Positions 49,480 to 50,461 of a stretch of DNA of 50,461 nucleotides are shown here, one piece after another. Source of the stretch: Gemmataceae bacterium. Its GTDB lineage: Bacteria; Planctomycetota; Planctomycetia; Gemmatales; Gemmataceae. The stretch is from NCBI GenBank assembly GCA_009692005.1, contig SHZZ01000026.1, positions 1-50,461 on the forward strand, in the 5' to 3' direction. The first letter of the stretch is position 1. Every line of letters begins with the position of its first letter. The position numbers and the translations under genes were made by a program. The notes below the pieces were generated by a model. That model was not told where the DNA came from and did no database searches. It saw only the letters and a list, made by a program, of their open reading frames with translations.

Positions 49480-49667
49480 TAAATGGTGTCAGTTCATTTT
49501 TCCGCTGGCAATTACCTCGTCCCCAGTTAGGTTGCCCGCATGAGCCGACCCTTGCAACCGAGCGCGGAAGGCTTGATCTACCACGCCATCAATCGCACAA
49601 CAATTGCAACGCCGTGTTTGCCCGGCCGCGGAAGGCGGAGCAGTTATAAATGAACTGACACCATTTA
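49480..49667 (+). mobile_element. 188-bp MITE-like remnant of a RAYT-type element
   Basis: The ends 49480-49499 and 49648-49667 are perfect 20-base inverted repeats (TAAATGGTGTCAGTTCATTT and its complement). The interior encodes only the N-terminal stub of a REP-associated tyrosine transposase (see separate entry). It therefore looks like an internally deleted, non-autonomous element. It lies between the MBL-fold gene and the final gene. Confidence 0.8.
49540..49653 (+). pseudogene. Decayed N-terminus of a REP-associated tyrosine transposase
   Basis: Reading from ATG 49540 gives MSRPLQPSAEGLIYHAINR, the typical opening of planctomycete Y1-transposase (RAYT) proteins. The frame then breaks: the expected continuation appears in another frame as NNCNAVFARPRKAEQL, ending at TAA near 49646-49648. 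A one-base frameshift near 49597 and loss of the rest of the gene explain this. The catalytic HUH and tyrosine are absent. Confidence 0.8.
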
Positions 49668-49775: not shown

Positions 49776-50461
49776 ATGAAGAAAATTCTGTCGTCACTAT
49801 TAATACTAGGTTTAGCGGGTTTGGGCCTGGGGCAAGACCCGGTTTTTTCCGGGCCGCAAGCGGGAGAGAAACTCCCCATACTCAAGGTCCGGGCGGTTTT
49901 TGATCCCCACGCGGGAAAAGAAATTGACCTCGTTGCCCTGGCTGGGGGCAAGCCCTTGGTGCTGATCTTTGTTCACGAAGTGAACCGGCCAGCCATTGGC
50001 ATGGCACGCACCCTGGCCACCTACACCAAGACCCGGGAAAAGGACGGCCTGACCACCGGCGTGGTTCTTCTCACCGACGACCCTGCCGAGGGCGAAGCCA
50101 CCCTCAAGCGAGTCAAAGGCGCCTTGGGCGAAGCGGTCCATACGGTTTCGTTGGATGGTAAGGAAGGGCCCGGCGCCTACGGGTTGAACCGGAAAGTCTC
50201 GCTGACCATATTGGTGGCTAACCAGGGAAAAGTGTCTGCGAACTTTGCCCTGATCCAGCCGAGCTTGCAAGCAGACCTGCCCAAGATTTTGGAAGCTGTG
50301 GTGAAGGTGGCCGGAGGGAAAGCGCCCAAGGTGGAAGACCTGGTGGGCATGCCGGTGGCTCGGCCGAAAAATGCCGAGCCCGATCCCCGCTTGCGGGAAC
50401 TGCTGCGGCCGGTGATCCAAAAAGACGCGACCCCGGAGGAAGTGGACAAGGCGGCCAAAGA
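49776..50461 (+). CDS. Secreted thioredoxin-fold-like protein (3'-truncated by window end)
   Basis: Reads open from ATG 49776 to the last base without a stop, at least 228 residues. The signal peptide is MKKILSSLLILGLAGLGLGQ. The next part has the redoxin-like pattern PQAGEKLPILKVRAVFDPHAGKEIDLVALAGGKPLVLIFVHEVNRPAIGMARTLATY, then TGVVLLTDD, and VSLTILVANQGKVSANFALIQPS. Where active redoxins have CxxC or a peroxidatic Cys, this protein has FVHEVNRPAIG and no cysteine, so it is probably not a redox enzyme. The C-terminal part is Pro/Lys-rich. Confidence 0.8.
   Translation, partial: MKKILSSLLILGLAGLGLGQDPVFSGPQAGEKLPILKVRAVFDPHAGKEIDLVALAGGKPLVLIFVHEVNRPAIGMARTLATYTKTREKDGLTTGVVLLTDDPAEGEATLKRVKGALGEAVHTVSLDGKEGPGAYGLNRKVSLTILVANQGKVSANFALIQPSLQADLPKILEAVVKVAGGKAPKVEDLVGMPVARPKNAEPDPRLRELLRPVIQKDATPEEVDKAAK

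Follow-up and report, generated by a model that had tools for sequence, protein, structure and literature searches.

Anatomy of the element

The window, which is the whole stretch of DNA analysed here (50,461 nucleotides), belongs to contig C43 of the Gemmataceae genome G000. At 49480-49667 it holds what is, by its sequence, a copy of a mobile element of roughly 190 bases, the interior of which reads as the decayed N-terminal part of a RAYT-type Y1 (HUH) transposase. The following features were recognised:

49480..49499, plus strand: left terminal inverted repeat, TAAATGGTGTCAGTTCATTT; in other copies the conserved stretch runs on through TTCCG to about 49504
49500..49539, plus strand: 40-bp leader from the left end to the start codon, common to the full-size copies and the decayed full-length element
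49540..49596, plus strand: N-terminal stub of a RAYT/TIRYT transposase, MSRPLQPSAEGLIYHAINR, followed in the window copy by a 1-base deletion
49599..49646, plus strand: shifted-frame continuation, NNCNAVFARPRKAEQL, an N-terminal segment fused to the last codons of the transposase (RPRKAEQ), with the stop TAA at 49647-49649
49623..49628, plus strand: CGGCCG, where the internal deletion was probably joined; the 664-bp relative has this 6-mer at both its N- and its C-terminal breakpoint
49648..49667, minus strand: right terminal inverted repeat, reading AAATGAACTGACACCATTTA on the plus strand; it holds the TGA of the ATG frame, and TT(CC) is favoured outside it in other copies

The ends at 49480-49499 and 49648-49667 were perfect inverted repeats (20 of 20 bp), as the initial annotation had stated, and their core was found twice in the window against an expected 0.18. 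The ATG at 49540 opens a frame of 37 codons whose stop, TGA 49651-49653, falls inside the right end, again as first described. Its first 19 residues matched the N-termini of RAYT proteins (68% over 19 amino acids to the L108 protein), and the stub taken as a family consensus matched RAYT at 74% over 27 amino acids (E 2e-12, five-protein set). Relative to the family alignment, one base was deleted after codon 19 of the window copy. The shifted frame then continues for 16 codons and ends RPRKAEQL-stop, so the window copy also holds the last codons of the transposase. The interior had been described as an N-terminal stub with one frameshift; the N-terminal codons and the frameshift were borne out, but the extreme C-terminus is present as well, joined on by an internal deletion.

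A repeat family and its full-length relative

The genome (4.19 Mb in 99 contigs) was searched with the element using BLAST. There were 39 matches. About a dozen were full size and 73-91% identical to the copy in the window, and the majority of these began and stopped at or near the left and right arms. A 14-bp end core, allowing at most one mismatch, occurred 47 times in the genome against once for the reversed control, and 15 of the 16 adjacent end pairs lying within 700 bp faced inward, with lengths of 74 to 232 bp. The ends are thus multi-copy. Between the ends, the 11 main copies shared about 83% identity with each other, and the flanks were unrelated between copies (at least 11). The reading frames were broken differently from copy to copy; the stub is not a conserved gene. 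A search of plasmids for the element gave no match.

One locus, G000:C86:26344-27006, is an element of 664 bp in which the same ends enclose a decayed transposase containing a frame shift in its N-terminal part and an in-frame stop. The readable 157 residues matched NCBIfam REP_Tyr_transpos at E 4e-14, below the cut-off, and the C-terminus (...SGRPRKAEQK-stop) runs into the right arm. Because about 28 residues near the C-terminus have been lost by comparison with intact relatives (...GRPLGEPGWTEKIAALLKLDLSPRPRGRPRK...), this element is related to the parent but is not itself the direct ancestor. Two findings upheld the view that the window element is MITE-like and made from the ends and a transposase stub: the multiple copies, and the decayed full-length RAYT, which has the ends of the short copies. 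The family is short, multi-copy and bounded by terminal inverted repeats, without an intact transposase, and it shares its ends with a full-length element.

The lengths in this genome formed a series of 664, 232, 193-165, 137, 111, 108 and 74 bp. A longer C-terminus was kept in the 232-bp copy on C22 and only the C-terminus in a 137-bp copy on C86, while almost nothing but the ends was kept in the copies on C30 and C32 (108-111 bp) and C59 (74 bp). One deletion class, that with the N-terminal stub, made up the majority of copies. This short family is explained by an internal deletion joining N-terminal ...VFARP codons to C-terminal GRPRKAEQ codons, and the presence of CGGCCG in both breakpoints suggests deletion at a microhomology. 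Another genus of the same bacterial family (G017) has derivatives of its own, which keep the left end and C-terminal codons.

The assembly yielded no intact transposase of the TIRYT type. A single intact Y1 gene of the genome scored above the Pfam cut-off, and it encodes a different, IS200/RAYT-like protein of 168 amino acids (L031, G000:C29:17662-17874). No ends of the element family were found around it within the 3.2-kb locus, and it is unlikely to have supplied the transposase in trans.

About ten end matches were located within 1 kb of a contig end (C22:323, C23:61699, C32:55168, C38:300, C40:642, C42:10795, C43:49484, C48:43579, C58:193 and C77:31261 of G000). This may be more than chance; the repeats may sit where the assembly breaks, and intact copies may for that reason be absent from it. 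At the end of the window contig, the last 49 codons (window 50313-50459) were identical to the codons with which C93:1-147 of G000 starts, and C43 and C93 probably join there.

Conservation of the ends and mode of movement

Substitutions from the consensus were counted with one copy having a truncated right end left out. They amounted to 13 of 400 positions in the arms (3.2%) and 130 of 1375 in the interior (9.5%; p 2e-5), an approximately threefold lower divergence of the ends that is partly ascertainment, since the pairs were picked by end cores that could still be recognised. The arms had no gaps, against about 11% pairwise gap mismatch inside. The earlier suggestion that the ends had been kept agrees with these counts. 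Variation at codon positions 1, 2 and 3 of the stub was 0.106, 0.060 and 0.095; with no third-position excess, nothing points to a coding stub under maintenance. Followed along the positions, conservation at the left end reached about base 24, and a TT was favoured just outside the right end, so the functional ends are slightly longer than 20 bp and not fully symmetric.

No target-site duplication of 3-9 bp was found in 16 copies, which fits what is expected of Y1 transposases. This absence and the descent of the coding remnant from a RAYT gene favour a Y1/HUH transposase acting in trans. The test for inverted flanks (a hairpin target) at the insertion sites was negative. A test of whether insertions avoid long open frames gave p 0.7, in a GC-rich genome. 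In the search for a relative with an empty site, the neighbouring metallo-hydrolase was not found beside homologues of the right-hand gene in family members.

The suggestion that the ends had been recently mobilised found no support. Given the divergence of about 17% between copies inside the ends and the lack of an intact transposase in the assembly, the family looks old and is unlikely to have moved recently; unless a gap in the assembly hides an intact copy, it is probably no longer active.

Relatives in other genomes and competing readings

Eighty related RAYT loci were found across bacteria, and 77 were scored for flanking inverted repeats. A score of at least 13 was reached by 27 of the 77, compared with 1.3% of mismatched left/right controls. 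The flanked loci include those of Singulisphaera GP187, Aeoliella, Desulfobulbus and Lentisphaerae, and related loci with perfect or near-perfect repeats of 18-28 bp exist. In three planctomycete genes without stops (L107/L054, L108 and L056), the stop codon is overlapped or closely followed by the right end of this family, either identical or slightly changed. The start of the L107 gene is cut by a contig end and its left end is unmatched there; no clear copy of the left end was found upstream of L056.

In TIRYT elements, or TIRtrons, a RAYT-like Y1 transposase lies between long inverted repeats (Di Nocera et al. 2013, PMC3733652); they have been placed mostly in subclass 2.1 (PMC6006769). 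That arrangement is shared by the present family, as is the occurrence of TIR families as singles and dimers. The end GGTGTCAG differs from the TIRYT motif GGGGWSAS (PMC3733652) at one of eight positions; relatives L112, L113 and L205 show GGGGACA, and the motif occurs in the majority, not all, of described TIRs (PMC6006769). In the part of PMC3733652 drawn on here, singles, dimers and clusters of TIRs are described, and derivatives that keep a coding stub from both gene ends are not mentioned. A RAYT gene between inverted repeats unrelated to GTAG REPs was found in the decayed C86 copy and at related loci, and the parent belongs to the TIRYT/TIRtron kind and not to the REP/BIME-type RAYTs.

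Several repeats were observed alongside. Close doublets of the same end occur in other planctomycete genomes, inverted and REPIN-like at L058:1501-1547 and L055:409-500, and direct at L057:1460-1560. At L044:1700, L037:8276, L036:5067 and the left flank of L004, this outer end begins or borders a second short repeat (CCGTGTC.TTCAC...TAGAAATG.CCCC...), possibly another deletion family with a different interior. At L056, L057 and L064 the outermost stretch of the end (GACACCATTTACG / AAATGGTGTCAGGAAAG) recurs just outside the element, as if left by repeated insertions or excisions.

REPINs and BIMEs resemble the element in being inverted pairs of RAYT-associated ends, with proposed mobilisation in trans by RAYT, but they are GTAG-tagged palindromes with no coding remnant and often exceed 100 copies (PMC3116915, PMC2817692). 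That the family is itself a REPIN/BIME-type repeat belonging to a REP-associated RAYT, and not derived from a TIR-type element, is improbable. The RAYT family, the REPIN-like close doublets of the same end in G252 and G129, and the potential of each end to fold as AAATG-N9-CATTT would suit it. The fold is weak, however (-1.2 kcal/mol), and not clearly above shuffles (24 of 200 were as good); no GTAG, and so no GTAG-tagged imperfect palindrome, was present in the 20-bp end, and the element contains transposase coding DNA, which REPINs do not.

We give very little credence to a MITE moved at TA by an IS630/Tc1-like DDE transposase, with the outer TA as target duplication and the RAYT stub as passenger. 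Perfect terminal inverted repeats are typical of DDE MITEs and TA starts nearly all ends in this genome, where a 2-bp duplication is inseparable from the end sequence, but the outer TA is missing from copies in other genomes (CCATTTTTCC, CCATTTTC) and longer duplications were absent. The full-length copy with the same ends encodes a RAYT, and RAYT genes in other genomes have the same right end, by which this explanation is largely refuted. It is just as improbable that the copies, old, diverged and lacking an intact transposase, are dead relics of segmental duplication or recombination whose short unit never transposed, because at least 11 of them share boundaries at the ends between unrelated flanks and the N-stub class forms most copies, implying spread after the deletion.

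PATEs of Haloquadratum are likewise derivatives of IS605-type elements by repeat-mediated core deletion, they lack target duplications, and some keep C-terminal coding remnants; they differ in having subterminal palindromes without terminal inverted repeats and an archaeal IS200/IS605 parent (PMC3119063). Assignment of the element to the PATEs was ruled out by its perfect terminal repeats.

Origin of the family and its meaning

The element is thus very likely a non-autonomous internal-deletion derivative of a TIRYT-type transposon, spread by a transposase supplied in trans. We infer the following order of events, with single-strand HUH chemistry. The starting point would have been a RAYT-family Y1 transposase gene between terminal inverted repeats of about 20 bp, the right one overlapping or just following the stop codon. 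A short GC repeat, here probably CGGCCG, would have been the site of a deletion that took out the catalytic core; both ends and the leader would have remained, with about 28 codons of the N-terminus and about 7 of the C-terminus. In this shortened form the element would then have been copied round the genome by the transposase of a full-length element recognising its ends, and that supplier may since have decayed, as at C86, or may lie outside the assembly.

The REPIN literature (PMC3116915) leaves open how RAYT-linked miniature repeats originate. More tentatively, and with the balance against it, the full-length TIRYT (664 bp), the stub MITEs (232-165 bp) and the near-minimal end pairs (74 bp) may be a graded series showing that REPIN-like doublets arise stepwise. 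If so, internal deletions of a RAYT transposon would yield REPIN-like doublets, and the mobile unit would outlive its transposase.

As transposon parasites go, the element is ordinary in kind, though for the RAYT-type class it is an unusually clear case, and it is a little-described variant in keeping pieces of both gene ends. Its tie to a specific transposase group makes mobilisation in trans testable, and short members with readable pieces of the parent transposase give a direct record of how miniature repeats originate, beyond the proteobacteria in which they are usually studied.
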